Positions 6,427 through 60,424 of a DNA stretch of 64,000 bases are shown here, piece after piece. The DNA is from Prevotellaceae bacterium (GTDB taxonomy: Bacteria; Bacteroidota; Bacteroidia; Bacteroidales; Bacteroidaceae). Positions within the stretch are counted from its first letter, which is position 1. Every line of letters begins with the position of its first letter. The stretch covers positions 62,001 through 126,000 of the forward strand of contig QAML01000076.1 of the NCBI GenBank assembly GCA_003150315.1, read 5' to 3'. The notes below the pieces were generated by a model. The model did not search any database, was not told the DNA's origin, and saw nothing but the letters and a program-made list of their open reading frames with translations. Both the position numbers and the translations under genes were made by a program.

Positions 6427-7715
6427 GATTTCTGAAAATAAAATGCTTTTGAAATAATATTTCTTTCAAAAGTTCAGAATAATTCCGTTTGCAGACATTT
6501 ACAATATAATGTAGAAACGTCAATTTACGCATGAAATGCACATTATTTCGGGAAATATCCGTTTGCGAGTGAAATTGGCGGCATTTATAGTGCAAAGCAT
6601 GGGTTCGCAAATGTAAAATGTACATTTGCGCGGGTTCTTATTCCCGTTTCTGAAAGGTCGTAATGCAGGAAAAACAGAATACACGGTAGAAGGACGCTCG
6701 GGAACAGAAAGTATGGAAGTTTGCTCTTGAATTATATCAAAATCCGGAGCGAAGAAACTATCTCGAAAGGGGCGAAAATCTCCGTTTTGCAAATATCGGA
6801 AAAACAAGGTGATAGAAAGGCAAAAAATACAAGGCACTTGTTTTAAAATAAGTGCCTTGTATTTTAAAATATATGGCTTGTATTTTTTAGAACATGCCTT
6901 ATGTTTTTTTCGGCAGTCGGGAAACGTTGTTTTTTTATGCGATTTTAGATTAAATCAATATAAGAATCGTTTGTGATGTAAAGAGGAAAAAATGTCGTAG
7001 GCTCTGTGCGGATGTTAAGGTATTTAATAATGCGGGGCTGTTAAGTGTTACAAGGAAATCCAAAATCGGAACTGTAAATACGTTTTTACCAAGAACGCAG
7101 GCGAAAAGCAATATGATTGAAACATTTCTTATTTCTAACATAGCGAAATAATATATGCCCACGCTTTTTGCAAGAAAAATAATTTTCCCGTCTGTTGTAA
7201 AATAAAGGATGTTCGTGGTCACTGATATTTTTATCCGGTTAATTAGCCCCGGTTTGGCATTTCTTACTTACATAAAATCGTGCTTAACTTATTGCGATGT
7301 GCAATTATACGATACTTTCTGCTTCTGTAGGTAATATATGGTTTGATATTCGTGTGTAAATATACTCGACCGTGTTTTCATGAGAAAGTTTATTTCTGTT
7401 ATCTGCTATGGTGTAATGATTTTGAAGTAGTACAAGCGGGAGTGGAGGATTGGCAGAAAGACTAATATCTATGACACGTGTTATAAATGGAATAAAATTT
7501 CGGAAGTCTGCAAAGATTGGGTGTTTTTATGCACGTTGTTGCTGAAGCAATGTTATTTGGTTCTCAATTTATACTTGTTGGCATGAATGTGTGAAAAAAG
7601 ATTCTTTCGAGGTGGTTACTTTTTGTTAGCTTGTGAAATAGTATACTCGTATGCAGAGGCAAATTTCATCTAATCAGATATTGCTAAAAGAAAAGAGTGT
7701 TTGGTGTGGATAAAA
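6427..7715. other. Gene-poor stretch between gdhA and ppiD
   Basis: About 1.3 kb with no convincing gene. It holds one 21-nt-unit array (6822-6908) and a perfect 10-bp hairpin CGCAAATGTA/TACATTTGCG at 6606-6630. Open frames of 90-105 codons on the minus strand show no signal peptide, domain or start-site support, and one of them begins inside the array. It could be decayed coding sequence or hold a non-coding RNA I cannot recognise. Confidence 0.6.
6822..6908. repeat. 21-nt unit array, copy 1 (1 forward, 3 reverse)
   Basis: Four 21-nt units. The first reads ACAAGGCACTTGTTTT; the next three are in reverse orientation (AAGTGCCTTGTATTTT, ATATGGCTTGTATTTT and a degenerate ATGCCTTATGTTTT). The forward/reverse junction makes a hairpin with a stem of about 20 bp. 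It lies about 460 nt upstream of gdhA. The flank sequence found beside other copies is not clear here. Confidence 0.85.
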
Positions 7716-7755
7716 AGAAATCTCCCGTAAATCGTATGATTTACGGGAGATTTTA
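7716..7755 (-). terminator. Terminator of ppiD
   Basis: A 16-bp stem, AAATCTCCCGTAAATC (7718-7733) with its complement at 7738-7753 and a 4-nt loop, followed on the minus strand by CTTTTTA. It lies 18 nt after the ppiD stop. Confidence 0.92.
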
Positions 7756-7773
7756 TAATTGCTTATTGATGTT

Positions 7774-9921
7774 TTAGAAGTAGAGGTAGCGACGGTCTTT
7801 AACCTTTGCTTTTGAGAAAAGGTCGTTTGTAAATTGACCTACATTGCGCAAATAGCTTTCTGCTACGCTCTGTTCGTACATCTTTTCGTTGAATTTTTCT
7901 CCTGAAGCTGTGCGGCTCGTAACTTCGAACATGTAAACGCCGTTGTTACCCTTTACAGGACCGTAGCTCTTGTTGAGTTTTCCGTAAGAAACGCCACCGG
8001 CAAGGACAGGTTCGTTTCCGCCAGTTGATGCAACGAATGCCGGCATCGCAAAAGTAATTCCGTTGAGAGTATCTCTTGATGCTGCGGGAAGTTTAAGTGC
8101 TTGCTGCAAATTCTTACCTTTGAGTTGGCTCATGATTTTCTCGGCTTTCTTGTCACGGAGAGCAAGTTGTCTGAGAGCTTTCTTGACTTCCGGGTCTGTA
8201 GCTGGACGATAGCCTACTTTATGCTTGCCAGTTACATAGATGATAAGCATGTTGTCGTTGTTGCCGCATTCATAAAGTTGCGAAAGGTCGCCTTCTTTTG
8301 CTTCGAACAACCAACGAAGTGCATCTTTTGTACCGGGGATGTTAGCCACATAGTGCTCGTTGCAGAATTGGTCTTTGCGTTCTTGTACGGTATAACCGTT
8401 CTTTGCTGCGTTAGCTTCCATTTTTGCAAAAGTGGAGTTGCTTGCAATAAAATGGCTGAACTTGTTGTATTCTTTAGAATAGGTGTCTTTGCTGAAATCA
8501 ACGGTGCGTTTTACAACTGCAAGATTGTATTTCTTCTTCATTGCCTGACGCTTTGTAATTTGAACAACTACTACGTTTTGTGCAAGCTCAATTTTCTGAA
8601 TGGAATTGACTGCACTTGTAGTAATGGTCTTGATGAAGTTCGCATTATCTGCATCAATTGACTGACCTTCGTATTGATTAGCTGTAAGCCAAACACCGGG
8701 CGCGGGCTGATTGTATTTCTTTGCCACGTCTTCAAACTTCGCTCCGCTGTTAATGGCTTTGATTACACTGTCGGCAGTTGCCTTTGCTGCGTCAAGCGAA
8801 GTGTTTGCGCAGTTAATGGCACGGTATTCCACGGAGTCGGGAACTTCGGAGACTGCAACAAGTTTAAGAATGTTTTGAGTGTTGTCGTACGCATTATAAT
8901 AAGGACCTTTTACTGTACCAACGCTCAAAGAATCTATTTGACTCTGGACATCGTTGGGGAAAGCCTCTTTTGAGAATGGAAGTCCGGAATAAGGTACGAG
9001 CGAACTGCTTTGGTTTATTGTTGCAGCGATGTTTTCGCCTTCGGAAAGCTCTTTGGCGTAGCCTTTCATCTCTTTTTCGAGAGCTTCTTTGTCTGCTGCT
9101 GACGCTTTAACCTGTACGCTTATATATTTAATGTCTCTGCTCTCGTTGAATTGACGGAACATTTCTTTATATTGTGCGTAAAGTTTGTTGATATCCTCGT
9201 CAGCAACTTTAACATCATTGTCAGGAACAGAAGTATATGGGATGGAAGCTACAACAGCGTTGCTCTTGCTTGAAACACCTTCGAAAGCAAGTTTCGCAGA
9301 AATCGGATTGGAAAGAATGCAACGACCAACGAGTGCCTGGTACTTCTCGTTCAAGAGAGAAGAACGGAGAGTTTTCTCAATGAATCCCCAGAATTTGTAA
9401 AGACGTTGGTAATATTCGATATATTCTTGCGGAACCTGGTCGGGTTTTGCCAACATTTGGTCGTATTGCTCAAGAAATTGTTTGAGCTGTGCGGCATCGA
9501 AGCGACCGGTTTGCTTGTTTACGAAAGGAGTTTGCATAAGCATAGGATTTGTTCCCGTGCTTATAACATTGTTCAGCTCTGCATCCGTAACAGTAAGCCC
9601 GAGTTTTTCTGCCTCATGCTTTATTAGCTCATTGTTTACGAAAGTTTGCCAAACTTGGTCTTTGAGTTGGTTTTGCTCTGCGTCGCTCAAAGAACTCTCA
9701 CCGCGTGTAAACTTAATTGCTTCGGTGTATTCGTCAATTAAAGACTGGTAATCGTTGATAGCAAGTTTTTCGTTGTAAACTTGGCCTACGTGGCGTTTAT
9801 CTTCGCCAAAGAGCGTGTCAAAAACGCGGAAGAAGTCTTCTGCAATAAAAGCAAAAAGACCGAGACCTATTACTACCAACAGGGCTATGCCCCATTTTCT
9901 AATAGTTTGAATTGCTGCCAT
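7774..9921 (-). CDS. PpiD/SurA-type peptidyl-prolyl isomerase
   Basis: 715-residue periplasmic folding factor anchored in the inner membrane. Residues 11-28 form one N-terminal membrane helix (GIALLVVIGLGLFAFIAE). A SurA_N-like helical chaperone region (about 40-200) follows, then parvulin-type segments such as AKATADSVIKAINSGAKFEDVAKKY (two pieces in the 370-430 range), and a long C-terminal chaperone part. Bacteroidales homologues have similar length. It follows lptC after 182 nt, with a possible own -7 box TATCTTTG at 10028-10035, so it may be transcribed both with the upstream envelope genes and alone. Confidence 0.88.
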   Translation of the reverse strand: MAAIQTIRKWGIALLVVIGLGLFAFIAEDFFRVFDTLFGEDKRHVGQVYNEKLAINDYQSLIDEYTEAIKFTRGESSLSDAEQNQLKDQVWQTFVNNELIKHEAEKLGLTVTDAELNNVISTGTNPMLMQTPFVNKQTGRFDAAQLKQFLEQYDQMLAKPDQVPQEYIEYYQRLYKFWGFIEKTLRSSLLNEKYQALVGRCILSNPISAKLAFEGVSSKSNAVVASIPYTSVPDNDVKVADEDINKLYAQYKEMFRQFNESRDIKYISVQVKASAADKEALEKEMKGYAKELSEGENIAATINQSSSLVPYSGLPFSKEAFPNDVQSQIDSLSVGTVKGPYYNAYDNTQNILKLVAVSEVPDSVEYRAINCANTSLDAAKATADSVIKAINSGAKFEDVAKKYNQPAPGVWLTANQYEGQSIDADNANFIKTITTSAVNSIQKIELAQNVVVVQITKRQAMKKKYNLAVVKRTVDFSKDTYSKEYNKFSHFIASNSTFAKMEANAAKNGYTVQERKDQFCNEHYVANIPGTKDALRWLFEAKEGDLSQLYECGNNDNMLIIYVTGKHKVGYRPATDPEVKKALRQLALRDKKAEKIMSQLKGKNLQQALKLPAASRDTLNGITFAMPAFVASTGGNEPVLAGGVSYGKLNKSYGPVKGNNGVYMFEVTSRTASGEKFNEKMYEQSVAESYLRNVGQFTNDLFSKAKVKDRRYLYF

Positions 9922-10027
9922 TATATAATTATTTTTATTTCAATTGTTATGATTTGTAAGAACTTAGCGGCGAAATCCGTGCTGCGTGCGTCCAAACTCA
10001 ATCTGTATGATTTTACTTAAATACATG

Positions 10028-10035
10028 CAAAGATA
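10028..10035 (-). promoter_or_regulatory. Possible internal -7 box for ppiD
   Basis: TATCTTTG on the minus strand in the lptC-ppiD gap, about 107 nt before the ppiD start. No TTTG at the right distance. Confidence 0.4.
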
Positions 10036-10103
10036 TAAAAATCAATAAAACCGCAGGCATTTTGTACTGCAAAAAATCATCTATGCACAAACATCGTTGC
10101 AGG

Positions 10104-10832
10104 TTATTTGTTTTTAGGCGGTAAAATCTTGTTTTTGTGGTTCTCTGCCTTTTGGTCGTGTTTGTTGTCCGTGTTGTCTGTTTTTGCCGAAATATCTTTC
10201 GGGGCATCTGTGATTATTGTTTTGTTGTTAGAGATGTCGGGTTCTCGTTTCACGGAATCTTCCTGTTTTTTCTCTTCCGGTACGGGGAAAGAACCTGCTG
10301 AGTTTGTAATTTCATAGTTTGTCAGCTCCTCATCCGAGCGAAATCCCACGCCTTTTAGTTCCTGCTGCGGAGTTACTATATGTACAAATTTGCTTGAGTA
10401 GACTATGTGTTTGCCCATATCCCAGAAAAGTTCGTTGGTATTGAATACCGTACCGTTTTCTTTTCTTATTTCCACTCGTCCGCGAAGTTCCCAAAGATTT
10501 TGGTCGTACCAATAAGCGGTGTCAGCGGTTAAAAACATTGCCACCTTGAAATGTTCGTCAAACTTTTCCATGAAAATGCCGTTCATGAAGGTTTGCTTTT
10601 GCGGCTTGGTGCGATCGTAAACTTTCCAGTCCTCTGCAATTAGTTTGTACCTTATTACTCCTGAGTCGGAAATCAATTTCGAAACTCCCGTAGTAGTCAT
10701 AATGGGAAGTTTGTCCCTGTTATGCAGTGCGGGGGCTGTTGGTTTTTCGTCTTGGCTGCATGCCATGGTAAGGGCTGCAGTTCCTACAATCAAGAGGGCG
10801 GCTTTTATTCTGCTTTCCACTTTTGGAACCAT
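10104..10832 (-). CDS. lptC: LptC-like lipopolysaccharide export lipoprotein
   Basis: 242 residues. The N-terminus is a lipoprotein signal (ALLIVGTAALTMACS), with the lipobox Cys near residue 25. Residues of about 40-190 fit the LptC/OstA-like beta-jellyroll fold that passes lipopolysaccharide from the inner-membrane LptBFG complex to LptA: ISDSGVIRYKLIAEDW, GIFMEKFDEHF, AYWYDQNLWELRGRVEI, TNELFWDMGKHIVYSS. The C-terminal ~50 residues are charged and of low complexity, probably disordered. The reading frame overlaps the end of the upstream outer-membrane protein gene by 28 nt, indicating co-translation. Other lpt genes are not in this window. Confidence 0.85.
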   Translation of the reverse strand: MVPKVESRIKAALLIVGTAALTMACSQDEKPTAPALHNRDKLPIMTTTGVSKLISDSGVIRYKLIAEDWKVYDRTKPQKQTFMNGIFMEKFDEHFKVAMFLTADTAYWYDQNLWELRGRVEIRKENGTVFNTNELFWDMGKHIVYSSKFVHIVTPQQELKGVGFRSDEELTNYEITNSAGSFPVPEEKKQEDSVKREPDISNNKTIITDAPKDISAKTDNTDNKHDQKAENHKNKILPPKNK

Positions 10833-12130
10833 TTCTCGTTAAAGGTAATGCCGATGCAAAGACGCAGATAGTTTTCTGTTATTGCCCCCGGTCCTTTAGG
10901 CTTTATGTTTTCCCATTGTGCCGAGAAGTTCAGTGTGGAGCGATTGTTTATTATGTTTGCAATCGGAAGTCCTACGCCGAGTGTAACCAACAGGTCTTTT
11001 GCACCGCTTTGCCCGTTGGCTTTTGCGTATGTGGTGCCGTATGAAACACCGGCGCGGTAACGTATATGGTCGCGATACTTTATGCCGAGGCTGTTGTGCA
11101 CATATTCTCCGCCCAAAGAAACATGTTGACTGTTGTCAAAGGCTCCCGTGGTGGAAACATACTTGTTTTCGCCGCCTTTCGAGGTCAGTTGCGGGAATTT
11201 TGCGTTCTTCCACAGCTCGATAGAGTAATCAAGTCCCACTTTCCATTTGTTGTTGTGATTCCAAGCCACACCGGCAGCTACGGAATGGGGCATTTCGAAA
11301 GCATTCTTCACTTTTGTTGTGTCGCCCGAGGAAACGGAACCCGAATAATTGGCTGTCTGATTAATGAATTTCGCGTCGGAATTTATTTTATGCCCCAACG
11401 TGTAGCTTGCACCTACAGTCATGAGGTCTTTCTTTGAAAGCAATTTGCTGTATTGCGCGCCGAAATCGATTTTGTAGGTTGAAATGTCTGCGGAATACAC
11501 GCGTCGGAACTGGTTTACGTTATTGTCGTTGAAAGCTGCCTGTATAGTATGGCTGTAGTCGCCCCAAACAAATCCCACGTTAGCACCTATCGAGAAATCT
11601 TTCACGATGTTCCAGCCTGCACCGAGATACACTTCTCTCAATCCGCCGTCGCCGGAGTAGGATGTCGATTCTGTTTTCTCTCCGCTGCCGTCCATGTCGG
11701 GAAGTGTCTGCTTATTTTTGAAACTGTAGCCTATTGAAGTAAGCGGCAACAAGCCGAACGACATACCAACATTGCGCCAGGCTCTGAACTGTGCGGTTAT
11801 GTAATCGACCGAAGTGTTTTTGGCATTTGTTTTAAGGCTTCCCTGTTTGAAATTGGCGTTTTGCAGCGAAACTCCTATATCGAAAAGAAGTGTCAGAGAA
11901 TCTACTGCGGAATATGATGCCGGGTTTTGGAAGTTAACTGCTGTGGCATCGCGAAAACCTTGTGCCACACCTGCCATGCCTTTATTGAATCCCTGTGCAC
12001 GATCGTTTATTGTGCCGAATCCGTATCTGGAATATGGCGAGTTGCTACCGTTTTGGGCGTTTGCCTGTAAGGATATGAGCGATATTGCCGCAGCAATTGC
12101 AATTCCCGATATTCTTGTTCTTTTGTTCAT
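10805..12130 (-). CDS. Outer-membrane beta-barrel protein, FadL-like
   Basis: 441 residues. A signal peptide (MNKRTRISGIAIAAAISLIS, cleaved after about QANA) precedes SPYSRYGFGTINDRAQGFN, a start typical of a Bacteroidales outer-membrane protein family distantly like FadL/OmpP1 transporters. The rest is alternating beta-strands rich in Tyr, Gly and Asn, and the protein ends in strands LRLCIGITFNEKWFQK, as expected for a barrel. Substrate unknown. It sits between coaX (23 nt upstream) and lptC (28 nt overlap), an arrangement I recall from other Bacteroidales; the context suggests an envelope-biogenesis or transport role. Confidence 0.75.
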   Translation of the reverse strand: MNKRTRISGIAIAAAISLISLQANAQNGSNSPYSRYGFGTINDRAQGFNKGMAGVAQGFRDATAVNFQNPASYSAVDSLTLLFDIGVSLQNANFKQGSLKTNAKNTSVDYITAQFRAWRNVGMSFGLLPLTSIGYSFKNKQTLPDMDGSGEKTESTSYSGDGGLREVYLGAGWNIVKDFSIGANVGFVWGDYSHTIQAAFNDNNVNQFRRVYSADISTYKIDFGAQYSKLLSKKDLMTVGASYTLGHKINSDAKFINQTANYSGSVSSGDTTKVKNAFEMPHSVAAGVAWNHNNKWKVGLDYSIELWKNAKFPQLTSKGGENKYVSTTGAFDNSQHVSLGGEYVHNSLGIKYRDHIRYRAGVSYGTTYAKANGQSGAKDLLVTLGVGLPIANIINNRSTLNFSAQWENIKPKGPGAITENYLRLCIGITFNEKWFQKWKAE

Positions 12131-12153
12131 TGTTTGTCGAATGTTGTGGTCTC

Positions 12154-12894
12154 TTATTTTGTTTGAATTGTGTCGGGCACTTTGTCGATAAGTATTTCGC
12201 GCAGTCCCTCAAACACAAGGTGCTTGTCGTATATTATTTCCGCTCCTTTCACAGAAAGGTCGGTTTCCGCTCCGCCGGTTACTATTGTTATCAGGTCGGG
12301 ATACTTTGTCAGCGTGTGCCTTATATATCCTTCCACTTCGTGATTCACTCCGTTCACTGCGCCGGAGCGCATGGCGGTGTATGTGTCGTATCCTATTTCG
12401 GGCAGAGGTCCTTCCGTGTCTACGAGGGGCAGCAGCGAAGTCCACGTGTGCATTGCCTGCAGGCGCATGTAGATTCCCGGCGATATGTTGCCTCCCAAAT
12501 ATTTCCCGTTTGCCGATATGAATTCGTATGTAATGCAACTGCCGTTGTCCACAACCAGTATGTTGCGGTCGGGAAACTTTGTCTTTGCCGCCACGATAGC
12601 TCCCAGGCGGTCGCTTCCCATTGTCGAGGGCAGCCCGTAGCGTTTGTTATATTCGGGAGTGGTTGCATCGTTCAGCAGAACGTTCGGAAGTCCGGCTTCA
12701 CGCAGTTGCGGACCTACTTTGCCTTTCAGTCCCGCCACGGTTGACACTATGCTGCGTTTTATGGGGTATTTCCCGATAATTTCGTCAAGCGGTTTCAAAA
12801 AGTCATTGCGACAGGAATCTTGAAAAACTATGTTACGTTCTTCGAAGATGGCTATTTTTGCAGATGAGTTACCTATGTCAACAATCAGTTCCAT
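12154..12894 (-). CDS. coaX: Type III pantothenate kinase
   Basis: 246 residues, ASKHA-fold kinase that phosphorylates pantothenate in the first step of coenzyme A synthesis. Motifs: phosphate-1 loop VDIGNSSAKIAIFE at residues 5-18, GSDRLGAIVAAKTKFP near 93, catalytic-Asp segment ILVVDNGSCITYEF near 115, GGNISPGIYMRLQAM, and TGGAETDL. Size and motif order match CoaX, not CoaA. It follows the unknown 147-residue gene after 40 nt in the same operon. Confidence 0.95.
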   Translation of the reverse strand: MELIVDIGNSSAKIAIFEERNIVFQDSCRNDFLKPLDEIIGKYPIKRSIVSTVAGLKGKVGPQLREAGLPNVLLNDATTPEYNKRYGLPSTMGSDRLGAIVAAKTKFPDRNILVVDNGSCITYEFISANGKYLGGNISPGIYMRLQAMHTWTSLLPLVDTEGPLPEIGYDTYTAMRSGAVNGVNHEVEGYIRHTLTKYPDLITIVTGGAETDLSVKGAEIIYDKHLVFEGLREILIDKVPDTIQTK

Positions 12895-13408: not shown

Positions 13409-13536
13409 CGCATTTTTTTCATTCTCGTTTACGGGCAACATATAAAAGATGTAACACACCCCGTAAGTTCGTAAATCTTGTGCGTGTAAATGCACCGGCA
13501 GGCTGCATAAAAACTCTGTATATTCATACGTTCGAA

Positions 13537-13619
13537 AACATAAGGCATTTCGTGAAAAATACAAGCCATATATTTTAAAATACAAGGCACTTATTTCAAA
13601 ATATATGGCTTGTATTTTT
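13537..13619. repeat. 21-nt unit array, copy 2 (3 forward, 1 reverse)
   Basis: Units: a degenerate ACATAAGGCATTTCG, then ACAAGCCATATATTTT, ACAAGGCACTTATTTC, and reverse ATATGGCTTGTATTTT. A diverged flank with GGAAAAACAGATGCTTAC follows at about 13620-13660. It is located between divergent genes (coaX operon and serB). Confidence 0.85.
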
Positions 13620-13811
13620 GGCAATTCGTAACTAATGGAAAAACAGATGCTTACAAATATGCAAAAAATGAATATGAAATTGCCCCGAATCCCATGTTTC
13701 CGGGACTTTTTCCCGTGTGTATTTACCCGCAAAGCCCGAATTAATTAATTTGTTATTTCTGTGCGGCGGCGAGCGGAATGTGGCTTATGGCGCAACAGGA
13801 AGCGCAAATGT

Positions 13812-18106: not shown

Positions 18107-18152
18107 TTGATACCTTTTGTTTTTGATAATAAAATAATGAAGGGATAATATC

Positions 18153-18257
18153 CTTGCACCTACCTACGCCGGCATTATCCGGATCAGGTTATAGGGTATG
18201 ATCTCAGACCGCCCAATAAAGCGGACACCCCTTAGAAAGCATTTTGCTTTCCAGGTG
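18153..18257 (-). promoter_or_regulatory. TPP (THI-element) riboswitch
   Basis: Read on the minus strand the hallmarks come in order: AGGGGTGTCC, a short P3 hairpin (CCGC...GCGG), TCTGAGATCATACCC, AACCTGATCCGGATAATGCC and GGCGTAGG. These are the conserved thiamine-pyrophosphate-sensing core. P1 appears to close with TTGCACCT/AGGTGCAA or a shorter part of it. An extra small hairpin GAAAGC-AAAAT-GCTTTC sits between the 5' strand of P1 and the GGGGTG core. It ends about 46 nt before the receptor start codon with no terminator-like T-run, so translational control is the likelier mode. Confidence 0.93.
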
Positions 18258-18288: not shown

Positions 18289-18351
18289 GGTTCGTAAAGT
18301 CGTCTGTTTTTTCTTGCGCAATGAAGGCGAAAAACACACATGGGAAATAAT

Positions 18352-18417
18352 AAAAAATATAAGGCACATATTTTAAAATACAAGGCACTTATTTCAAAAT
18401 AAGTGCCTTGTATTTTT
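18352..18417. repeat. 21-nt unit array, copy 3 (2 forward, 1 reverse)
   Basis: Three units: ATAAGGCACATATTTT, ACAAGGCACTTATTTC, then reverse AAGTGCCTTGTATTTT. The flank CTTGATAAACAATGAAC follows at about 18418-18458. It lies between the riboswitch-led operon and a rightward pseudogene. Confidence 0.87.
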
Positions 18418-18651
18418 GCGCATTTCCAAATGCTTGATAAACAATGAACTATTAGAAGTTGAAAATGTGTGGAAAAAGTGCGTCGTAATGGGGCTTGCAA
18501 GGGCATAAATTTCAAGGAAAATCATATACGGGCGTGTGCTTTCGTACAACAATGTGCCCGATCTTGAAAATGTATGATTTTGTAATTTTTGAATAGCGTT
18601 TGTTTTTTTTGCTTGTTGTTTGCTTTTTTCTATATTTGCATTAGGAATATC

Positions 18652-28008: not shown

Positions 28009-28039
28009 CAAAATTACGAATTTCTGCGGTTACCGCAAA
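28009..28039 (-). promoter_or_regulatory. Promoter of the valS operon
   Basis: Minus strand TTTG (28036-28039), 19 nt, TAATTTTG (28009-28016). A 21-nt-unit array begins only 16 nt upstream of the TTTG box. Confidence 0.8.
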
Positions 28040-28055
28040 AACATAAAGGATATGG

Positions 28056-28144
28056 AAAAAAACATAAGGCATATATTTTAAAATATGTGCCTTGTATTTT
28101 AAAATAAGTGCCTTGTATTTTGAAACAAATGCCTTATGTTTTTT
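28056..28144. repeat. 21-nt unit array, copy 4 (1 forward, 3 reverse)
   Basis: Units ACATAAGGCATATATTTT, then reverse ATGTGCCTTGTATTTT, AAGTGCCTTGTATTTT and AAATGCCTTATGTTTT. Outer ends ACATAAGGC/GCCTTATGT are also complementary. The flank TATAAACAATAACTTG follows at about 28145-28185. It lies between divergent valS and acetyltransferase genes. Confidence 0.88.
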
Positions 28145-28295
28145 CGCATTTATAATGGTCTTATAAACAATAACTTGTAAAGAGGTGCGAAATGACCGTT
28201 TTTCGTGTGCCGATATGCGACTTCCGAGATGTGATTTCTCATGGCTTGCCGACATGTTAGCTTACGTTCTCAGAGGAATTGTGAGAATAAAGTGC

Positions 28296-33023: not shown

Positions 33024-33112
33024 GAAAAAACACATGGCTTGTTGTGAAAAATACAAGCCATATATTTTAAAATACAAGGCACTTATTTCAAAATATATGC
33101 CTTATATTTTTA
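33024..33112. repeat. 21-nt unit array, copy 5 (3 forward, 1 reverse)
   Basis: A degenerate first unit ACACATGGCTTGTTG, then ACAAGCCATATATTTT, ACAAGGCACTTATTTC, and reverse ATATGCCTTATATTTT. A diverged flank CTGAAATTTAACGGCTTG follows at about 33113-33155. It is in a divergent promoter gap. Confidence 0.86.
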
Positions 33113-33224
33113 GCGTTTTCAAATGCCTGAAATTTAACGGCTTGTAAAAGCCGAAAATTCGAGTGTGAAAATGATGCTAAAAACGGGCGTTGAAACAAAT
33201 TTCTGGGGAGGTATGGCGCGCGTG

Positions 33225-39314: not shown

Positions 39315-39400
39315 AAAAAACATAAGGCATGTGTTGAAAAATACAAGGCACTTATTTTAAAATACGAGCCATATATTTTAAAATACATGGCTCGTATTTT
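39315..39400. repeat. 21-nt unit array, copy 6 (3 forward, 1 reverse)
   Basis: ACATAAGGCATGTGTT, ACAAGGCACTTATTTT, ACGAGCCATATATTTT, then reverse ACATGGCTCGTATTTT. The last two share the unusual CGAGCC/GGCTCG, so their pairing is conserved where the sequence differs from other copies. The flank CTTTGAAACACAATAACTT follows at 39401-39440. Confidence 0.88.
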
Positions 39401-39545
39401 CGGACTTGTAAAGTCTTTGAAACACAATAACTTATAAAGTAACTATGAAGTGCGCTTAAAGTTTTGAATTTCAGCGGTTTCCCGGAAAATGCATGCTTCC
39501 GCCGTTCTGAATGCCGGCACCGCCTGTTTGCCCCGAACCGTTGCC

Positions 39546-44225: not shown

Positions 44226-44296
44226 AAAAAAACGTGCATTTGCAAGAGTAAAAAAGTGCCATTGCAAGTTGTTGTGCATGAGACATTTGGAAAAGT

Positions 44297-44385
44297 AAAA
44301 AATACAAGCCATATATTTTGAAATATATGGCTTGTATTTTAAAATATATGCCTTATGTTTTTTACGATAAGCCATGTGTTTTTTC
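44297..44385. repeat. 21-nt unit array, copy 7 (1 forward, 3 reverse)
   Basis: ACAAGCCATATATTTT, then reverse ATATGGCTTGTATTTT, ATATGCCTTATGTTTT and a degenerate ATAAGCCATGTGTTTT. The flank GCAAGTTGTTGTGCATGAG precedes it at 44263-44296, so the whole element is inverted relative to copies 2-6. It lies 3' of convergent rsmA and the GDPD gene. Confidence 0.88.
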
Positions 44386-47574: not shown

Positions 47575-47722
47575 CGCATAAACTGCGAATAAAACCGAAA
47601 GTATGCGCTAAAACATTCTTTCCGTGTCTGTTTTGCGAATAACGATATGTTTGCGGCGGGAGAAAAAGAGCCTGATTTTTGCGCCGATGCAGGCAGTTGT
47701 TTTTCAGGAGATTAGAAATGAC

Positions 47723-47811
47723 GAAAAATACAAGCCATTTGTTTTGAAATATAAGGCACATATTTTAAAATATATGCCTTGTATTTTTTCATACAAGCCA
47801 TGTGGTTTTTC
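47723..47811. repeat. 21-nt unit array, copy 8 (2 forward, 2 reverse)
   Basis: ACAAGCCATTTGTTTT, ATAAGGCACATATTTT, reverse ATATGCCTTGTATTTT, then degenerate ACAAGCCATGTGGTTTT. The flank GGCAGTTGTTTTTCAGGAG precedes at 47692-47722. It lies between pyrF and the exporter operon terminator. Confidence 0.86.
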
Positions 47812-53684: not shown

Positions 53685-54058
53685 TTTTCCTGTTCCTTGT
53701 TGTTTTTATATTCGGCGTATAGCTTTTCTATATCTCCGAAGTCTATTCCGAGCATGTCCATGTGTTTGAAGAAATCGGGCACAAAGGATTCGAAAAATTC
53801 TTTTTTCCTTGCTTCGGTAATTATTTCCCTGCTGTCGGGAGTTACGAAATACCCCAATCCGCGTTTGCTTTCTATTATCCCAAGTTGTTCAAGGTATCCG
53901 TATGAGCGCACTGCGGTATTTGCGTTTACTTCCATTTGTGATGCGTAGTCGCGCACCGAAGGTATCCGGTTGCCTTCCTCATAAACGCCGAGCATTATCT
54001 CATCGCAAATGCGCGTGGCTATTTGTTGATATATTGATTTGCTGTCGTTGAAGTTCAT
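53681..54058 (-). CDS. GntR-family (YtrA-type) transcriptional regulator
   Basis: 125 residues. Winged helix-turn-helix at about 8-75: SIYQQIATRICDEIMLGVYE, GNRIPSVRDYASQMEVNANT, AVRSYGYLEQLGIIESKRGL. A short C-terminal helical tail follows, with no FCD/UTRA ligand domain, as in YtrA-type GntR proteins. In Bacilli these repress ABC transporter operons and respond to cell-envelope stress; by analogy it probably autoregulates this operon. An AGTGTA/TACACT palindrome sits at the operon's promoter (separate entry). Confidence 0.9.
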   Translation of the reverse strand: MNFNDSKSIYQQIATRICDEIMLGVYEEGNRIPSVRDYASQMEVNANTAVRSYGYLEQLGIIESKRGLGYFVTPDSREIITEARKKEFFESFVPDFFKHMDMLGIDFGDIEKLYAEYKNNKEQEK

Positions 54059-54114
54059 AGATTTGTCTTAGATGTTTTTTAATCCTACCTGACGGTTACT
54101 GAAACTGATAAAAT

Positions 54115-54945
54115 TCATAATCTTTTCCGCAGTCCGCTTAGGTAACTCTTCAGTCCGGGGCGTACAACCTGCATGCGTTTGAAAAGAAAATATGAAAGCC
54201 AGAAACAGAATACCGTCATTGCCGAAATTATTACTATATGAAAAATCAGACCTGCCGTTTTGTCCCCGTTGCACCAGATGTTGACGTTTATGTTTTTGAA
54301 AACTGTAAGATACTCTCCCGTAACTCCGAGAATAAAACAGGGCATCAGTATTATGGAAGTGATTATCCAGCTTTTCTTTTTCCACAATATTCCTCCGAGA
54401 AGGTATAGCGAGAAACCGAAAAGGGCACATACAAATCCCAATAAGGGTAGGAGAAACTCGCTAAACCTTGTAACGCCGTAGAAGCGTAAGTTGAAATATG
54501 CAAAAGGATTAAATTTCGCATCGGCAGGAATGTCTCCCGAAATCCAAAGTATGATACCGAGTAAAAGGTAGAGCACAAGATAAATAATATACGAAGCCAC
54601 AATCGTGCCGCATACCACTATTATGATACGGGCAAGGAATTTTTCCATATTTGTGGCGGGAAGCATTATGTGGCTTATGCGGTTTCCTTTATCGGAAAGG
54701 CTTGCTGCAAAAAACGATGCTCCGAATGTTATTCCGAAAACCATTGTTAAGAATGTAAAGTCCGACAATTCGTCCAGCATTTCGTATACCGGTGCGGAAC
54801 CGAATAGTTTCACGAAAAAGAATATCATATACATCACTGCCATTGACATGACACACAGGCGAAATTCCGGTGAAAGAAATCCACATTTAAGCACATGCAG
54901 GAAACGGTTGCCTGAGAAATTGTTTACGGGATTTATTATTTTCAT
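54115..54945 (-). CDS. ABC-2-type membrane protein paired with the first ATPase
   Basis: 276 residues with about six hydrophobic helices (MSMAVMYMIFFFVKLFGSA, FLTMVFGITFGASFFAASL, IIVVCGTIVASYIIYLVLY, LLPLLGFVCALFGFSLYLLG, WIITSIILMPCFILGVTG and a C-terminal helix). No ATPase domain. The position directly after a YtrA-like ATPase (4-nt ATGA overlap) suggests it is that ATPase's permease partner. Family assignment by eye is uncertain. Cargo unknown. Confidence 0.78.
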   Translation of the reverse strand: MKIINPVNNFSGNRFLHVLKCGFLSPEFRLCVMSMAVMYMIFFFVKLFGSAPVYEMLDELSDFTFLTMVFGITFGASFFAASLSDKGNRISHIMLPATNMEKFLARIIIVVCGTIVASYIIYLVLYLLLGIILWISGDIPADAKFNPFAYFNLRFYGVTRFSEFLLPLLGFVCALFGFSLYLLGGILWKKKSWIITSIILMPCFILGVTGEYLTVFKNINVNIWCNGDKTAGLIFHIVIISAMTVFCFWLSYFLFKRMQVVRPGLKSYLSGLRKRL

Positions 54946-55799
54946 AATTCTTCGTCTTTTTGATTGTTGTTGTCCTTGTTATCTATTGATATTTTGCCGT
55001 CAACTGTAGCGGTGAACAGCATTTCCAAGTCGAGTGGTGTGTCTGTTCCCGCATTATTGTCCATAATAATTTTATTACCGTTCACGGAACGTTGCACATA
55101 TATTGCGTCGTCAACGGGTTCTCCCATGGGGCGTTCGTCAAAAGCGTAGCGGTTTGTAATGGCTTCGGTTGAGGCGTTGAGCATAAGCTTTCCGTTGTCA
55201 ATTATAATGATATGGTCAAGAAGATTATCAATGTCTCTCACCTGATGAGTGGATATAATGACGCTCTTGTCCTCGGTCATGGTTTTTGAAATGGCTCTGC
55301 GAAATTGCACTTTCGACGGAATGTCCAAACCGTTTGTGGGTTCGTCCAAAAGCAGCAGGCTTACGTTGGTGGCAAGTGCAAAACATACGTAGGCTTTCTT
55401 CTTGTTTCCCATTGAAAGTTCGCCCATGGGCATGTCGTAAGGCATGTCGAATTCCGAAAGACAGGTTTTGAGTGTTTCTTCGCTGAAGCGCGGATAGAAG
55501 GGAGCGTAACGCTTCACGTATTTTTTGAAATTGTATTTCGGAAGTGTGAATTCTTCGGGAAGAATAAAGATGTTGCTCAAAGTTTTTGGCTCGCGCTTTT
55601 TTGTATCATCGCCCATAAAAAGAATATTTCCTTTTCGCGGGCGAAGCAGACCGGCTATGAGATAGATGAGAGTGGATTTGCCCGAACCGTTGCGCCCGAG
55701 CAGACCGTAGATGTTGCCTTGAGGTAGTGAAAACTCGAGGTTTGAGTAAAGGTTTCCATGTCCGGGATAACCGAACGATACTTTGTTGATGTCGATCAT
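54942..55799 (-). CDS. ABC ATPase, first gene of the GntR/ABC operon
   Basis: 285 residues. Walker A GRNGSGKSTLIYLIAG at about 35-50, Walker B LLLLDEPTNGLDIPSKVQF near 163, H-loop ISTHQVRD. The signature, LSMGNKKK, departs from LSGGQ; a similar variant is common in YtrB-like ATPases. The ~60-residue C-terminal extension has no known motif. It begins right after the promoter-operator region; the regulator encoded two genes downstream probably controls it. Confidence 0.9.
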   Translation of the reverse strand: MIDINKVSFGYPGHGNLYSNLEFSLPQGNIYGLLGRNGSGKSTLIYLIAGLLRPRKGNILFMGDDTKKREPKTLSNIFILPEEFTLPKYNFKKYVKRYAPFYPRFSEETLKTCLSEFDMPYDMPMGELSMGNKKKAYVCFALATNVSLLLLDEPTNGLDIPSKVQFRRAISKTMTEDKSVIISTHQVRDIDNLLDHIIIIDNGKLMLNASTEAITNRYAFDERPMGEPVDDAIYVQRSVNGNKIIMDNNAGTDTPLDLEMLFTATVDGKISIDNKDNNNQKDEEL

Positions 55800-55813
55800 T
55801 TGTATACTGTTTT

Positions 55814-55837
55814 AGTGTATTACTTAATTAGTACACT
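55814..55837. promoter_or_regulatory. Operator-like palindrome of the GntR/ABC operon
   Basis: AGTGTA and TACACT half-sites separated by 12 nt; 20 of 24 positions are symmetric. I recall the Bacillus YtrA site as AGTGTA-N13-TACACT, nearly identical. It lies across the predicted transcription start just below the -7 box, a classic repressor position. Confidence 0.75.
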
Positions 55838-55838
55838 G

Positions 55839-55869
55839 CAAAAGTATATATTGATTCAAATGTGGCAAA
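55839..55869 (-). promoter_or_regulatory. Promoter of the GntR/ABC exporter operon
   Basis: Minus strand TTTG, exactly 19 nt, TACTTTTG: full consensus. The predicted start is about 55833, inside the palindrome. Confidence 0.85.
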
Positions 55870-56108
55870 GAAAAATCGGGATTTTTTTTGTTTTTTCTAA
55901 AAAAAACTTTTTTCAAATCCGCAAATGCCGTCAGGCAGCGGGTATAAGACTGTTCATATTTTACGCATATATTCATTTTTACAATCCGAGTGGAGCATCC
56001 CGGGGCGGGATGCTGAATCGCGGGCACAACACCTTGAAACACAGGGAAATAGATGTGTAATAGTGATAAATATATAAGTTGCTGTTTATCAGAAAGTTGA
56101 AAAGTGCA

Positions 56109-56196
56109 AAAATACAAGGCACATATTTTAAAATAAATGCCTTGTATTTCAAAATATATGGCTTGTGTTTTTTGTAATAAGCCTTATGTTTTTTGC
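56109..56196. repeat. 21-nt unit array, copy 9 (1 forward, 3 reverse)
   Basis: ACAAGGCACATATTTT, reverse AAATGCCTTGTATTTC, ATATGGCTTGTGTTTT and ATAAGCCTTATGTTTT. The flank ATAAGTTGCTGTTTATCAG precedes at 56073-56108. It lies between divergent genes. Confidence 0.88.
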
Positions 56197-56302
56197 GAAA
56201 AGCGGAAAAGATGAAAAAATGAACTGATATATGGAATAAAAATTCGGATTGTTTTGAAAATTCAACCAATGGGTGTTGCGGAAAGGTTGTCATAAAAATG
56301 GC

Positions 56303-56310
56303 TACCTTTG
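56303..56310 (+). promoter_or_regulatory. -7 box of the DUF2867 gene
   Basis: TACCTTTG, 67 nt ahead of the start codon. TTG occurs 13 nt and 24 nt upstream, neither at the ideal distance. Confidence 0.45.
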
Positions 56311-56377
56311 TAGTGAGAATATCTTCATGGGATTTAGTTGAAATAAGTACAAGAACGTAATAAAACAAAATATAGTT

Positions 56378-56803
56378 ATGCTGCAAAACAATATTTACGA
56401 TTATACAGACATGTTTGAAGCATCTGTTCGTGTGGGTAGAAGAATTTGTGCGGAGGAACTTGCGAAAATGTTTTTTGCTTTGCCTCCATGGGTTGCGGCT
56501 TTAATGAAACTGCGTAATGCTCTGATGAAACCTTTGGGACAGAAAGGAGAAAAATCGCTCGGGGAGTATTTGTTGACTGAATCGGACAGTGTGGCAACGG
56601 TAAGCAAGAAGGACAGACACCTGAACCTCCTGGTGGTTTTCAGGTCGGAGGAAAACAATGACGGAAACCAAAAGATTTCTTTTTCTACCAATGTGTGCTT
56701 CAACAATGGCATGGGGAAATTTTATTTTGCGCTAATCAAGCCGTTTCATACTTTTATTTGTAAGAAAATGTTGAAGCGTGTGGTTAGAAAGCTTGAACGC
56801 TGA
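56378..56803 (+). CDS. DUF2867 protein
   Basis: 141 residues, no signal or membrane segment. It matches DUF2867 by YDYTDMFEASVR near the start, AEELAKMFFALPPWVAALMK with LRNALMKPLG in the middle, and the C-terminal FNNGMGKFYFALIKPFHTFI. This region is often seen as a stand-alone small protein or fused to oxidoreductases; function unknown. It is isolated between two leftward operons and converges on the ABC exporter gene across 49 nt. Confidence 0.85.
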   Translation: MLQNNIYDYTDMFEASVRVGRRICAEELAKMFFALPPWVAALMKLRNALMKPLGQKGEKSLGEYLLTESDSVATVSKKDRHLNLLVVFRSEENNDGNQKISFSTNVCFNNGMGKFYFALIKPFHTFICKKMLKRVVRKLER

Positions 56804-56852
56804 GTAAGCAGAAAGCATATCATCCGGAAAAACAGCAGGAGGTAATGAAGAA

Positions 56853-58508
56853 TCAGCTTATCCTTACAGTTTCGTCGGCATATTTTATTACGGCATCGCG
56901 GTGTGTAACAAAAAGAATGGTTTTGTCTTTTATGTTATTGCGTATGTTGTGCAGAATTTTCTCCTCTGTTTCGCTGTCAAGTGCCGATGTGGCTTCGTCC
57001 ATGAGCAGTATGGGCGACGGCGAAAGCAGTGCTCTTGCTATGCAAAGACGTTGCGCCTGACCTTGCGACAGACCTCGTCCGCTTTCTCCGCATTGGGTGT
57101 CGAGACCTTCGCGGTTGTGTGTTATGAAATCGGCACAAGCCCATTCGAGAGCCTGCAACATTTGCGTGTCCGTGGCTCCCGGGTTTGCCAGTCGCAGGTT
57201 GTCGCGCAGCGTCATGCTTAAAAGCGAATTTCCCTGCGGCACATAGGCAAAAGCACAACGGGTGTCGGCTGAAATTTCCCGTTTGTCGTTGCCGCATATT
57301 ATATATGTGTGTCCCGAACAAGGGGAAACGTATGAAAGCAGAAGCCTTATAAGCGTGGTTTTGCCCGCTCCGGTGGTACCAACAATAGCACTCATGGTTC
57401 CCGGCTTGAATGTATGGCTGAAGTTGTTGATTACGGTTCTTTTGTTGTCCGAATAGCGATAGGAAATATTCTCGCAGCAAATGCCGGGAACGCCGGAAAA
57501 GGGGCCTGATTTACCTGTGGATTTTTCGCTGTTTATGGAATCAATTTCGTTAAGTCGCTCACAGGAAGTGTAGAACTCCGCAAAATCGGAAATGGAATTG
57601 ATAAGCGTTCGCGAAGGTCCCTGAATCTGTCCCGTGAGTTGCACGAAAGCCATGAGTGTGCCGTATGTAATTGCTCCTGTTTCAAGATTCAGTACTCCCC
57701 AAATGAATACAAAAAGATAGCATGCGGCAAATCCGAGGTTCAACACCGTGGAAGAGAGAACGGAATAGGTTAATCGTCTTTTGATGTTGCCTTTCTGTAT
57801 GTCGAAAATGCCCGAGTAGTATTTGGCAAACAGGTTCTGCCCCGTAAGAGCTTTCAAAACCGAAATATTTTGAACGCCTTCCTGCAGCGCAGCTTGGAGT
57901 CGGCTGCCGCATTCTTTTATTTTGGCTGAAAAACTGCGGATTTTAAGAAAGTGGAATTTGCTTATCACTATGCCTAAAACCATTATTACGGCAAGGGCAA
58001 TGGCTATGTCTTTGCTGAGAACAAACAGGAAAATGTAGGCACCGCCTAATTGCAGAAGCACAAGCAGTATGGTGGGAATTGTGCCGTTTACGAACGAAAT
58101 GATTTCGGTTCCGTCTTCCTCGAAACGTCTCACAATGTCGCCCGTGTGATATTCGTTTATGTCTTTCCAGTTTGCCGAAACCGCGTGATGAAACAAGTGT
58201 TCCTGCATGCGCCGGTTCATGTTGAAACTTAGCAATGTTTTCAGCCGGCGGTTGATTGCCGAAATCACTGCTTGAAGTATGATGATTACCACAAGCATTG
58301 CGCAAGCAAACCGGAGAGCCCATTGGTTGTGATAGACTGTTGCCATGTCGATGGCGTTCTTTGTGGTCCACACGAAAAGAAAATTCAGTCCCACCACAGT
58401 CCATCCCAACACTACGTTAAGGCACATTTTCAGTTTGTAGTGCCTCACAACCTTGCCAATCCATGGCAGGATGACGGCGAACTTGTATTCCTTGCCTCCG
58501 AAGTTCAT
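56853..58508 (-). CDS. ABC exporter, fused membrane and ATPase domains
   Basis: 551 residues from ATG 58508; a longer frame running back into nadK is rejected. It has about six membrane helices in the first 320 residues, then an ATPase: Walker A GTTGAGKTTLIRLLLSY near 395, Q-loop FAYVPQGNSLLS, signature GLSQGQAQRLCIARALL (LSQGQ instead of LSGGQ), Walker B ILLMDEATSALDSETEEKIL, H-loop VTHRDAV. It is a half-transporter; substrate unknown. It lies 11 nt after nadK. Confidence 0.9.
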   Translation of the reverse strand: MNFGGKEYKFAVILPWIGKVVRHYKLKMCLNVVLGWTVVGLNFLFVWTTKNAIDMATVYHNQWALRFACAMLVVIIILQAVISAINRRLKTLLSFNMNRRMQEHLFHHAVSANWKDINEYHTGDIVRRFEEDGTEIISFVNGTIPTILLVLLQLGGAYIFLFVLSKDIAIALAVIMVLGIVISKFHFLKIRSFSAKIKECGSRLQAALQEGVQNISVLKALTGQNLFAKYYSGIFDIQKGNIKRRLTYSVLSSTVLNLGFAACYLFVFIWGVLNLETGAITYGTLMAFVQLTGQIQGPSRTLINSISDFAEFYTSCERLNEIDSINSEKSTGKSGPFSGVPGICCENISYRYSDNKRTVINNFSHTFKPGTMSAIVGTTGAGKTTLIRLLLSYVSPCSGHTYIICGNDKREISADTRCAFAYVPQGNSLLSMTLRDNLRLANPGATDTQMLQALEWACADFITHNREGLDTQCGESGRGLSQGQAQRLCIARALLSPSPILLMDEATSALDSETEEKILHNIRNNIKDKTILFVTHRDAVIKYADETVRIS

Positions 58509-58519
58509 TTGCTGTGTGA

Positions 58520-59404
58520 TTATTTCTGCAGGTCTCCGTCCCACATCAGTTTTTCGCGCATGGTGTCGAAGAAAGTTTTGTTTCCGCAGTGTATTGTTTT
58601 TATGTCGTAAGGCGCACGGCGAATGGTGATACAGTCTTCTTCGCTGCAACTCGAGTTTCTGCCGTCAACAGCTACGAGGAAATGTCCCGTGCGACTCATC
58701 ACGTTCATTTTTATCTCAACGTTGTCGCAAATTACAATGGGTCTTACGCTCAAACTGTGGGGCGCAACGGGAACAATGACTATTGAATTGGATTCGGGAA
58801 CCACAACCGGTCCGCCCGACGACAGGGCATATCCCGTAGATCCCGTAGGTGTGGCAAGCACAAGACCGTCTGAAGAGTAGGTGGTGAGGTATTCGTCGTT
58901 AATGAAAACCCTTATTTTTATCATGGATGAGATGTCCTGTTTGAGCACAGCCACTTCGTTGAGAGCAAAAGGGTAAACGCCGAGATTATGCCTGCCTGCC
59001 GCCACTTCAATAACGCTTCGCGATTCGATTTTGTAGCTTCCCGATAAAATATTGTCTATGGCTTCTTCGAAATTTTCTGGTTTTATTTCCGACATGAAGC
59101 CGAGGTGTCCTATATTAATGCCGAGTATGGGGATTCCTTTCGATTCCACGAACATTGCTGTGCGCAGAAAAGTTCCGTCGCCTCCGAGACTTATGGCGAA
59201 ATCTGCGTTGAAATCTTTGCCTTCAAAGATATTGCTTTTGTCAATTGCGTCAAGATATTGCGCAGAACTCTCGTAGAATCCGCTTTCCACAATCACGTTG
59301 CAGCCTTTTGCACGAAGCAAATCAACAACACGCCTTGCGTATTTGCTTTTATTTGTTTGGTGCATGTTGCCAAATAATGCGACTGTTTTTTGATTTGAAT
59401 ACAT
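58520..59404 (-). CDS. nadK: NAD kinase
   Basis: 294 residues, phosphorylates NAD to NADP. Motif [20 protein letters not shown] at about 73-92 and the conserved [20 protein letters not shown] (about 178-197) are diagnostic; the N-terminal half has [20 protein letters not shown]. Length is normal. It probably forms an operon with the downstream ABC exporter. It is divergent from pdxJ across 96 nt. Confidence 0.95.
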
Positions 59405-59442
59405 AATGTTTTTATTGCGAATCCTTATGAATATGTTTTTGC

Positions 59443-59450
59443 TACCTTTG
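59443..59450 (+). promoter_or_regulatory. -7 box of pdxJ
   Basis: TACCTTTG, 50 nt before the ATG. No TTTG at the preferred distance. Confidence 0.5.
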
Positions 59451-59500
59451 CAACAGGACTATTTGCAAATTTACAAAAATCTCCAATATATAAAACTATA

Positions 59501-60220
59501 ATGACAAGACTTAGCGTAAATGTAAACAAAATAGCCACATTGCGCAATGCGCGTGGAGGCAACAACCCGGATGTGGAGAAAATGGCGGCAGATTGCGAGT
59601 TTTTCGGGGCGGAAGGCATTACTGTTCACCCGCGTCCCGATGAGAGACACATAAGATATTCGGACGTAAGGGCTTTGAAGAAAATAGTAAAAACGGAGTT
59701 CAACATAGAAGGTTATCCATCGCAATCGTTTAATGAGTTGGTGTTGGAAGTGAAGCCCACGCAAGTTACTCTTGTGCCCGATAAACCTGATCAGCTTACC
59801 TCAAATCACGGTTGGGATACCAAAGGCGAGCTTGATTTCCTCAAGGAAACGGTGAAGAAATTCAAAGTTTCGGGCATACGTGTGTCGCTTTTTGTGGATC
59901 CTGTGCTTGAAACCATTGACTATGCCAAAGAAGTGGACGCTGACCGCATTGAACTTTACACAGGTCCGTATGCCGAGGCTTACGAAGAGGATCGCGAGAA
60001 AGCCATAGAGCCTTTTGTGATTGCCGCAAGGCATGCAAAGAAAATTGGTTTGGGAGTTAATGCTGGTCATGACCTGAGTTTGAAGAATCTTGCCTATTTC
60101 CATGAGTGCATTCCCGACACAGACGAGGTGAGCATAGGGCATGCTTTGATTTGCGATGCTCTTTATCTTGGCATTCACGATACAATATCATTGTATAAAG
60201 AGTGTCTGAAAGCCGAGTAA
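59501..60220 (+). CDS. pdxJ: Pyridoxine 5'-phosphate synthase
   Basis: 239 residues, TIM-barrel enzyme that joins 3-amino-2-oxopropyl phosphate and deoxyxylulose 5-phosphate to form pyridoxine phosphate (DXP-dependent vitamin B6 route). Motifs: [20 protein letters not shown] at the start, [86 protein letters not shown] and [17 protein letters not shown] perfect family member. Confidence 0.97.
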
Positions 60221-60355
60221 GGCGTTTGTAACCCGACAGGCGGCATAAGGCTGCGGACCGGTTTTATACCGGGCAAAACGCAGGGCTTGCGCCATGTTTC
60301 GGAAGGCATGAAAAACGTCTCTCGCAAGTTGTTGTTTTTCATAAGCTTGAAGAGA

Positions 60356-60424
60356 CAAAAAATACAAGGCATTTATTTTAAAACATAAGGCACTTATTTT
60401 AAAATATGTGCCTTATGTTTTTTA
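60356..60424. repeat. 21-nt unit array, copy 10 (2 forward, 1 reverse)
   Basis: ACAAGGCATTTATTTT, ACATAAGGCACTTATTTT, then reverse ATGTGCCTTATGTTTT. The flank GCAAGTTGTTGTTTTTCAT precedes at 60322-60356. It lies between convergent genes. Confidence 0.88.

Follow-up and report, generated by a model that had tools for sequence, protein, structure and literature searches.

Directional elements of three 21-nucleotide units and a tail are dispersed between genes in Prevotella-related genomes

The window, a 64,000-nucleotide (nt) stretch of a Prevotellaceae genome (contig QAML01000076.1 of assembly GCA_003150315.1, positions 62,001 to 126,000), carries in its intergenic gaps eleven copies of a directional element of about 125 nt. 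The element consists of a degenerate 21-nt first unit, three 21-nt units (U1, U2 and U3; four units in one copy) and a tail, and this architecture is common to the window, genomes G812 and G1112, and one copy in genome G1127. The elements are probably miniature mobile repeats that are non-autonomous and resemble REPINs or BrickBuilt in how they work. This reading is drawn from the copy number, the loss of similarity at the element edges, the intergenic and direction-neutral placement, the non-orthologous sites, the tandem pairs and the genome-specific words.

A 21-nt unit pattern with up to two mismatches has 61 matches on the two strands of the window, against a mean of 0.16 in 100 shuffles, and the ten arrays that a first-pass annotation had placed between 6822 and 60356 are all real and in strict 21-nt register. 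The count of ten was incomplete. Of 15 window tandem arrays in the period range 10-45, 12 have period 21, and Tandem Repeats Finder added an eleventh array at 2890-2973 whose 21-nt units have a different sequence. With this copy (2890-3016), two word types coexist within the window genome, and its tail scores best of the eleven.

Each of U1, U2 and U3 is built of a 6-nt AT-rich arm, a 9-nt word and another 6-nt arm. Nine window copies, oriented by their last unit, align gap-free over 84 nt, with U1 forward (F) and U3 reverse (R) in 9/9 and U2 F in seven and R in two; the 28056 copy is longer by one unit and reads F R R R. The annotation had described three or four units per array, which are really a degenerate first unit followed by three good ones (four at 28056). 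Its single orientation switch, in an order never mixed, holds for the good units of all ten arrays, where F comes first and R last, but is limited to them, because copies 33024, 44297 and 47723 have a first unit in the R sense (CACATGGCTTR). Of the two bounds it proposed, CGAAAA and TTTTCG, a CGAAAA-like start is found on one side, but the other side is the tail, so the bounds are not symmetric. The annotation overlooked the tail as well as the near-constant length of the element, its degenerate first unit and the replacement of words from one genome to another.

The tail carries the motif CTGAWWWWCA..ACTTGTAAAG, which begins 16-17 nt after U3. A weight matrix for the tail was built solely from 108 copies of G812, namely those of its 140 elements that are complete and flanked on each side by 150 nt of sequence. 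Within the 45 nt after U3, this matrix scores best at offset 16-17 in 9/11 window copies; the two exceptions are the 2890 copy, with offset 19, and the 18352 copy, whose best place is at 27 and scores below zero. In 9/11 window copies the place is also the top of its strand within the 300 nt examined. Scanned over both strands of the entire window, the matrix reaches a score of at least 9 at only 13 positions, 12 of which are within 80 nt of elements, at 9/11 elements. The same matrix places the tail at offset 15-16 in 19 of the 20 G1112 copies read. The opposite strand scores too, or instead, in several window copies, so the tail is partly symmetric there.

Pairwise identity among the window copies is 0.89/0.79/0.85 in U1/U2/U3, 0.68 in the first unit, 0.43 (ungapped) in the tail and about 0.28-0.30 outside the element. 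The corresponding values are 0.93/0.89/0.92, 0.81 and 0.57 in G1112, and 0.70/0.72/0.78, 0.66 and 0.61 in G812. The units are the best kept part within a genome, and the frame and tail persist between genomes.

Pfam matches of the window proteins are consistent with a chromosome from the Bacteroidales. The closest genomes found are in the family of Prevotella sp. UBA2444; we take the family of Prevotella to be Bacteroidaceae in GTDB. The annotation had proposed searching relatives with a pattern or model, and such searches did find the element. A profile built from 23 copies (10 from the window and 13 from G812) detected 140 non-overlapping elements at E<=1e-5 in the 1,145,611 bp of G812, or one per 8.2 kb, including the 13 model members, which match by construction. 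In the 2.3 Mb of G1112, a sequence-only model gave 131 matches at E<=1e-4. Because at least four listed matches repeat a locus on its other strand, and scoring covered only 150 candidates, the true number may be lower or higher. The 20 G1112 copies that were read have the same frame of first unit, three units and tail, with units 21-22 nt apart and the word TTATTAGTAAC. G1127 has one element, with the word GCGAGCCGAGC and a tail offset of 17.

The element was found in few of the other relatives sampled. A junction pattern (one mismatch allowed) matched 25 of 399 family genomes, with at least four matches only in G812 (5) and G1112 (4), and its backward control matched 10 genomes, never more than twice. 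Stricter filters were applied to another sample of 291 family genomes, in whose listing the inclusion of G1112 and G1127 is not evident; 8 of these genomes had a match at E<=1e-5, and the strong ones were only in G812. A similar exact pattern matched 4 of 398 genomes of the UBA2444 genus, with 6 matches in G415; among 60 relatives of G415 the unit is abundant in G415 alone (16 forward, 13 reverse) and occurs at most twice in the others. G415 and UBA2444 carry 21-nt arrays with AAGTGGC-type words, which gave no model match at E<=1e-4 and, in a small locus set, weak profile matches over the unit part (best E 1.6e-6). Weaker matches in G990, G844, G950, G1003, G1047, G1057 and G1060 include 21-nt arrays with other words, and a tail scan of four of these loci gave one strong match (G844, L298). 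A centre-pattern scan of the genome collection returned 7 stretches, all of which were judged by eye to be chance except a Prevotella sp. UBA2444 locus (L003). Viral contigs gave one match, at nearly the same locus as L003, and none to three further word patterns. No match to a G812 element was found in plasmids and phages, and none to a window element in plasmids.

Each genome uses a small set of words. Four words were defined in G812, where the commonest combination (CATAGGAC, CATTTGAG, CATTTGAG reversed) accounts for 57/108 copies. The main word of the window, CAAGGCAC, is present in a minority of G812 units, so one word is common to the window and G812; those of G1112 and G1127 are different.

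The number of units is nearly constant (107/108 G812 copies by length, one being 22 nt longer, 20/20 G1112 copies read and 9/10 window copies), with the caveat that copies were found with three-unit models and partial matches were dropped. The outer units are also nearly fixed in orientation in the 108 G812 copies: every U3 reads R, and for U1 the counts are 105 F, 2 R and 1 unassigned. For U2 they are 97 F and 11 R. The fixed outer units account for the single switch, but the rule is not absolute. Two G812 copies are R-R-R, and the arrays of G415 have mixed orders by our own reading, so the claim that the switch is never lacking does not extend to relatives.

Some G812 elements form direct tandem pairs about 232 bp apart (L189 11203/11435, L204 3660/3891 and L207 6846/7079), suggesting that some copies multiply along with flanking DNA. 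Of 123 merged G812 loci, 50 lie within 700 bp of a stretch end (200 ends, of which 18 are 20-kb analysis cuts and not contig ends), so the elements probably break assemblies. Arrays of other unit families with a period of about 21-22 nt (TTCTCATRCGGATG type and GCATGTAATCGGATGCTCA type) were seen by eye beside G812 elements, downstream in L141 and L148. Further genomes of the family or order have other 21-23 nt arrays of unrelated, often palindromic units (L059 1271-1354, L065 1267-1309, L067 508-574, L073 4265-4362, L078 1282-1335 and L014 1167-1238), and such arrays may form a broad class.

The intergenic placement described by the annotation is borne out, with 11/11 window elements in gaps that make up 13.5% of the window. 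The gene list was selected from mechanical open reading frames (ORFs) with the help of Pfam, and unsupported ORFs of 100-135 amino acids (aa) that overlap some arrays were treated as non-genes. The arrays occupy divergent, convergent and co-directional gaps. In G812, where placement rests on simple ORF-based gene calls, 5/140 elements overlap called ORFs; four of these overlap only ORFs of at most 151 aa, and the fifth (25.6 bits) reaches into the end of an ORF of 411 aa. For another 63, a called gene is missing from at least one side within the fetched stretch. The remaining 72 are in 41 co-directional, 20 divergent and 11 convergent gaps, compared with about 38/23/11 predicted by gap length, and in the co-directional gaps 18 elements run with the genes and 23 against them. 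The G812 copies follow the available intergenic length and are direction-neutral, which agrees with the annotation's statement that the element does not follow promoters or terminators alone.

The sites were compared between the window and 100 fetched G812 contigs, whose orthologues are about 43-88% identical, and zero element positions are shared among six comparable sites. The 33024 element lies in a divergent gap of 474 bp, and the orthologous gap of 134 bp in G812 has no element, although the stretch beside the DUF1573 gene is still recognisable by eye. On the 3' side of ksgA, where the window has the 44297 element, the next ORF in G812 is 60 bp away. The outer-membrane efflux gene adjoining 47723 has no element in the 488 bp available in G812. 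Both genomes have an element upstream of the ABC gene 54942-55799 and near the glutamate dehydrogenase gene, in each case in opposite directions and at different distances (about 0.4 vs 1.5 kb for the latter). Two elements are found upstream of corA in G812 and none in the window.

In the proposed mechanism, the non-coding element, of which the arrays are the most conserved part, spreads, or has spread, through the intergenic DNA of a Prevotella-related lineage. An enzyme encoded elsewhere would recognise the units and the tail and copy or move the whole element. It would read the units either in double-stranded DNA, as tandem sites spaced by two helical turns, or in single-stranded DNA, as an F-R hairpin. 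The small word set of each genome would arise because most copies derive from recent master copies, and the sets would differ between genomes because the unit and its recogniser change together. We infer the mobility, the enzyme acting in trans and the joint change of unit and recogniser.

Several points weigh against this mechanism. No transposase was found, nor a target-site duplication or an ORF-carrying copy, the last two without a systematic search, and the element ends could not be placed exactly. REPINs, which are doublets of repetitive extragenic palindromic (REP) sequences, are thought to be mobilised by RAYT transposases (PMC3116915; text available in part). No RAYT was found beside elements in the sequences searched. 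Matches to the Y1 family (PF01797) exceed the cut-off in G812, G001, G495 and 13/29 other genomes searched, fall short of it in G415 and are absent from G1112; Y1 proteins thus do not track the arrays across these genomes. The one Y1 protein of G812 is next to an ORF that we take to be OrfB-like, and its nearest elements are about 2.3 kb away on one side, with a contig end on the other. Within a genome the units are better kept than the tail (less so in G812). Whole copies decaying neutrally would not be expected to show this, so the units are likely to be under selection or conversion as well. Since the window and G812 are distant, the differences in occupancy may also be losses.

Selection on the units as binding sites is the main rival to the mobile-repeat reading and may be true in addition to it. 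The arrays would then be selected sites for a chromosome-organising or other DNA-binding protein, with one site per 21-bp unit, three of them in helical phase as a platform, and the tail as a second site, kept at intervals. Such a role is consistent with the 21-bp period, the nearly constant unit number, the strong conservation of the units, the sharing of CAAGGCAC and the partial symmetry of the tail in the window, but opposite-strand tail matches occur in just 9/108 G812 copies. The window elements are also rather evenly spaced (coefficient of variation 0.33, P=0.0074 against random distinct gaps), but the test was post hoc and on 10 intervals. In G812 (20 intervals, also post hoc) evenness is weaker, with P=0.04 and 0.10 against random distinct gaps; a uniform null gave P=0.0015, and even spacing is not claimed there. 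Genomes of a single family differ in their main unit words, most of the sampled family genomes lack the element (any match in 8/291), and the six comparable sites are not shared, which makes a binding platform somewhat unlikely as the whole explanation. Plain minisatellites, that is, 21-nt tandem repeats grown by slippage with no further meaning, would account for tandem units that are alike and for the 21-23 nt arrays of many sequences in relatives. They are very improbable and already disfavoured, as the unit number hardly varies, the outer units have a fixed orientation and a non-repeated tail follows at a fixed offset.

The elements could also act at the RNA level, as hairpins in transcripts, where they would terminate transcription, shield mRNA ends or pair with one another. 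As single strands, 10/10 window copies fold more stably than their shuffles (z from -2.95 to -8.38), in agreement with the hairpins described by the annotation; for the 47723 copy, 2/200 shuffles fold equally well. The fold partner of U3 is U2 in some window copies and U1 in others, and U1:U2 pairing is seen in some. In element 2, U1 and U3 are fully complementary, with U2 in between. The G812 gaps argue against such a role, since the 72 elements, unlike intrinsic terminators or 3'-end hairpins, have no preference for gene 3' ends or transcription direction, and window copies are in divergent gaps too. Rfam, above the gathering score, gave only a thiamine pyrophosphate (TPP) riboswitch in the window and no match over the elements; this riboswitch (18146-18242, minus strand) is upstream of a TonB-dependent receptor gene and about 90 bp from the element at 18333. 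Pairing of the tail stem and of the unit arms as RNA was rejected, with no covariation among the 108 G812 copies, and a consensus RNA fold of the G812 alignment retained only part of the U2:U3 stem. An RNA-level role appears quite improbable.

Complementarity between F and R units is nevertheless kept in the broader comparisons. The annotation had noted compensating changes between copies. The CGAGCC/GGCTCG pair of copy 6 is real, but within-copy complementarity over the ten window copies (19.4 vs 19.1 of 21) is not above position-keeping shuffles (86/400), and it is slightly above them in G812 (2/400). In a joint alignment of 27 copies, which are related to each other, U2:U3 pairs fill 80.1% of cells vs 68.4% shuffled and U1:U3 pairs 75.2% vs 67.7% (0/500 shuffles for each), but pairs changed on both sides are not above shuffles (137 and 275 of 500). 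The U3 word is complementary to the U1 or U2 word in 97/108 G812 copies, also related, vs 84 in shuffles. When 13 genomes contribute one element each, F-R complementarity reaches 16.4 vs 13.0 of 21 (0/3000 shuffles); on the four tail-bearing genomes alone, 50/3000 shuffles reach the value. A first version of this test used 12 hand-chosen elements from 11 genomes; the 13-genome version adds G1127 and G1047, omits the second G990 element, takes other copies for the window and for G1112 and reads G844 in the other direction. Complementarity across genomes does not prove selection for pairing, because R units may be inverted copies of F units in the same array. That the pairing of units matters, as the annotation suggested, is plausible but unproven from these comparisons.

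It is also conceivable, if unlikely, that the array is an exchangeable address code. The tail and the three-unit 21-bp frame would be kept across genera, and 9-nt words from a small set would be used at 100 or more loci of one genome and largely replaced in the next; a fast-changing recogniser, protein or RNA, would read the words, either in moving the element or in setting marks at intervals along the chromosome. The odds of such a code are lowered because G812 uses at least four words and shares CAAGGCAC with the window.

Table of the window elements and their parts (positions in the window; tail offset in nt after the last unit)
Element	Position	Strand	First unit	U1	U2	U3	Tail	Tail offset	Remarks
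1	6784..6907	-	6887-6907	6866-6886	6845-6865	6824-6844	motif 6784-6807	16	profile E=3.7e-30
2	13535..13659	+	13535-13555	13556-13576	13577-13597	13598-13618	to 13659	17	fold z -8.38
3	18333..18457	+	18333-18353 (degenerate)	18354-18374	18375-18395	18396-18416	present		tail matrix: nothing convincing on own strand, 16.9 on opposite strand of same stretch
4	28038..28183	+	28038-28058 (degenerate)				motif 28160-28183	17	four units 28059-28142 (F R R R), sole copy of the ten with four good units; direction set by tail, profile prefers reverse strand for units (E=1.7e-21 vs 1.7e-18)
5	33027..33150	+	33027-33047 (R sense)	33048-33068	33069-33089	33090-33110	motif 33127-33150	16	
6	39317..39440	+	39317-39337	39338-39358	39359-39379 (CGAGCC)	39380-39400 (GGCTCG)	present	16	
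7	44259..44382	-	44362-44382 (R sense)	44341-44361	44320-44340	44299-44319	present	16	
8	47684..47808	-	47788-47808 (R sense)	47767-47787	47746-47766	47725-47745	present	17	
9	56069..56192	-	56172-56192	56151-56171	56130-56150	56109-56129	present	16	tail second best of strand
10	60319..60442	-	60422-60442 (degenerate)	60401-60421	60380-60400	60359-60379	present	16	
11	2890..3016	+					motif 2993-3016	19	four 21-nt units of CTACATCAGATGTAG type, 2890-2973; profile E=1.4e-6

The element adds a high-copy, precisely built repeat class to the Prevotella family, a large gut group. A conserved frame and tail with largely replaced words is the trace expected from a race between a repeat and its recogniser, and the unit array plus tail gives a concrete handle for finding that recogniser. 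A literature search found no description of the element and only the miniature inverted-repeat transposable elements (MITEs) of Porphyromonas gingivalis as comparable, most subscription journals being outside its coverage. P. gingivalis and the window bacterium presumably belong to the same order, Bacteroidales.

The P. gingivalis MITE BrickBuilt, according to the part of its description that was available (PMC4596501), has bricks of 23 nt, with 1 to 22.8 of them in each element; strain ATCC 33277 contains 19 copies, and some copies bear 12-nt IS5-like terminal inverted repeats. As in BrickBuilt, the units form a spacer-free tandem array that is dispersed, intergenic and hairpin-forming, with no transposase inside. 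The distinct leader and tail of BrickBuilt also have counterparts in the first unit and the tail, which are at fixed places, the tail being confirmed by an independent matrix. Unlike the direct 23-nt repeats of BrickBuilt, the units here are 21 nt long, nearly always three in number and switch from F to R, an all-direct order not being the rule. G812 and G1112 each have more than 100 copies compared with the 19 of BrickBuilt, and the words mostly change between genomes. No terminal inverted pair like the IS5-like repeats (GAGACCTTTGCA type) was seen by eye in the aligned copies, whose ends are not exactly fixed, although the end of the G812 tail (..ACAAAGGG..) resembles the right repeat of BrickBuilt, again by eye only.

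REPINs, as far as the accessible text describes them (PMC3116915), are similar in being short extragenic repeats that form inverted hairpin pairs, reach high copy numbers, are randomly placed, occur in tandem clusters and have lineage-specific sequences. They consist of two REPs and a spacer, whereas the element has three 21-nt units without a spacer plus a non-repeated tail. The GTAG or CGTC tag reported at the end of REP units (PMC3733652, seen in part) is absent from the units of the ten window arrays, and GTAG/CTAC is found in the 2890 units and in many G812 units. Bacterial interspersed mosaic elements (BIMEs), described in the excerpt available as mosaics of REPs (PMC2817692), also have several short palindromic units at regular spacing, but their units alternate in orientation, whereas the element has one switch. 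Because one tested feature of each system fails, namely the doublet with spacer of REPINs and the variable number of 23-nt bricks of BrickBuilt, the element is filed as a new variant of dispersed repeat and not as a member of either.

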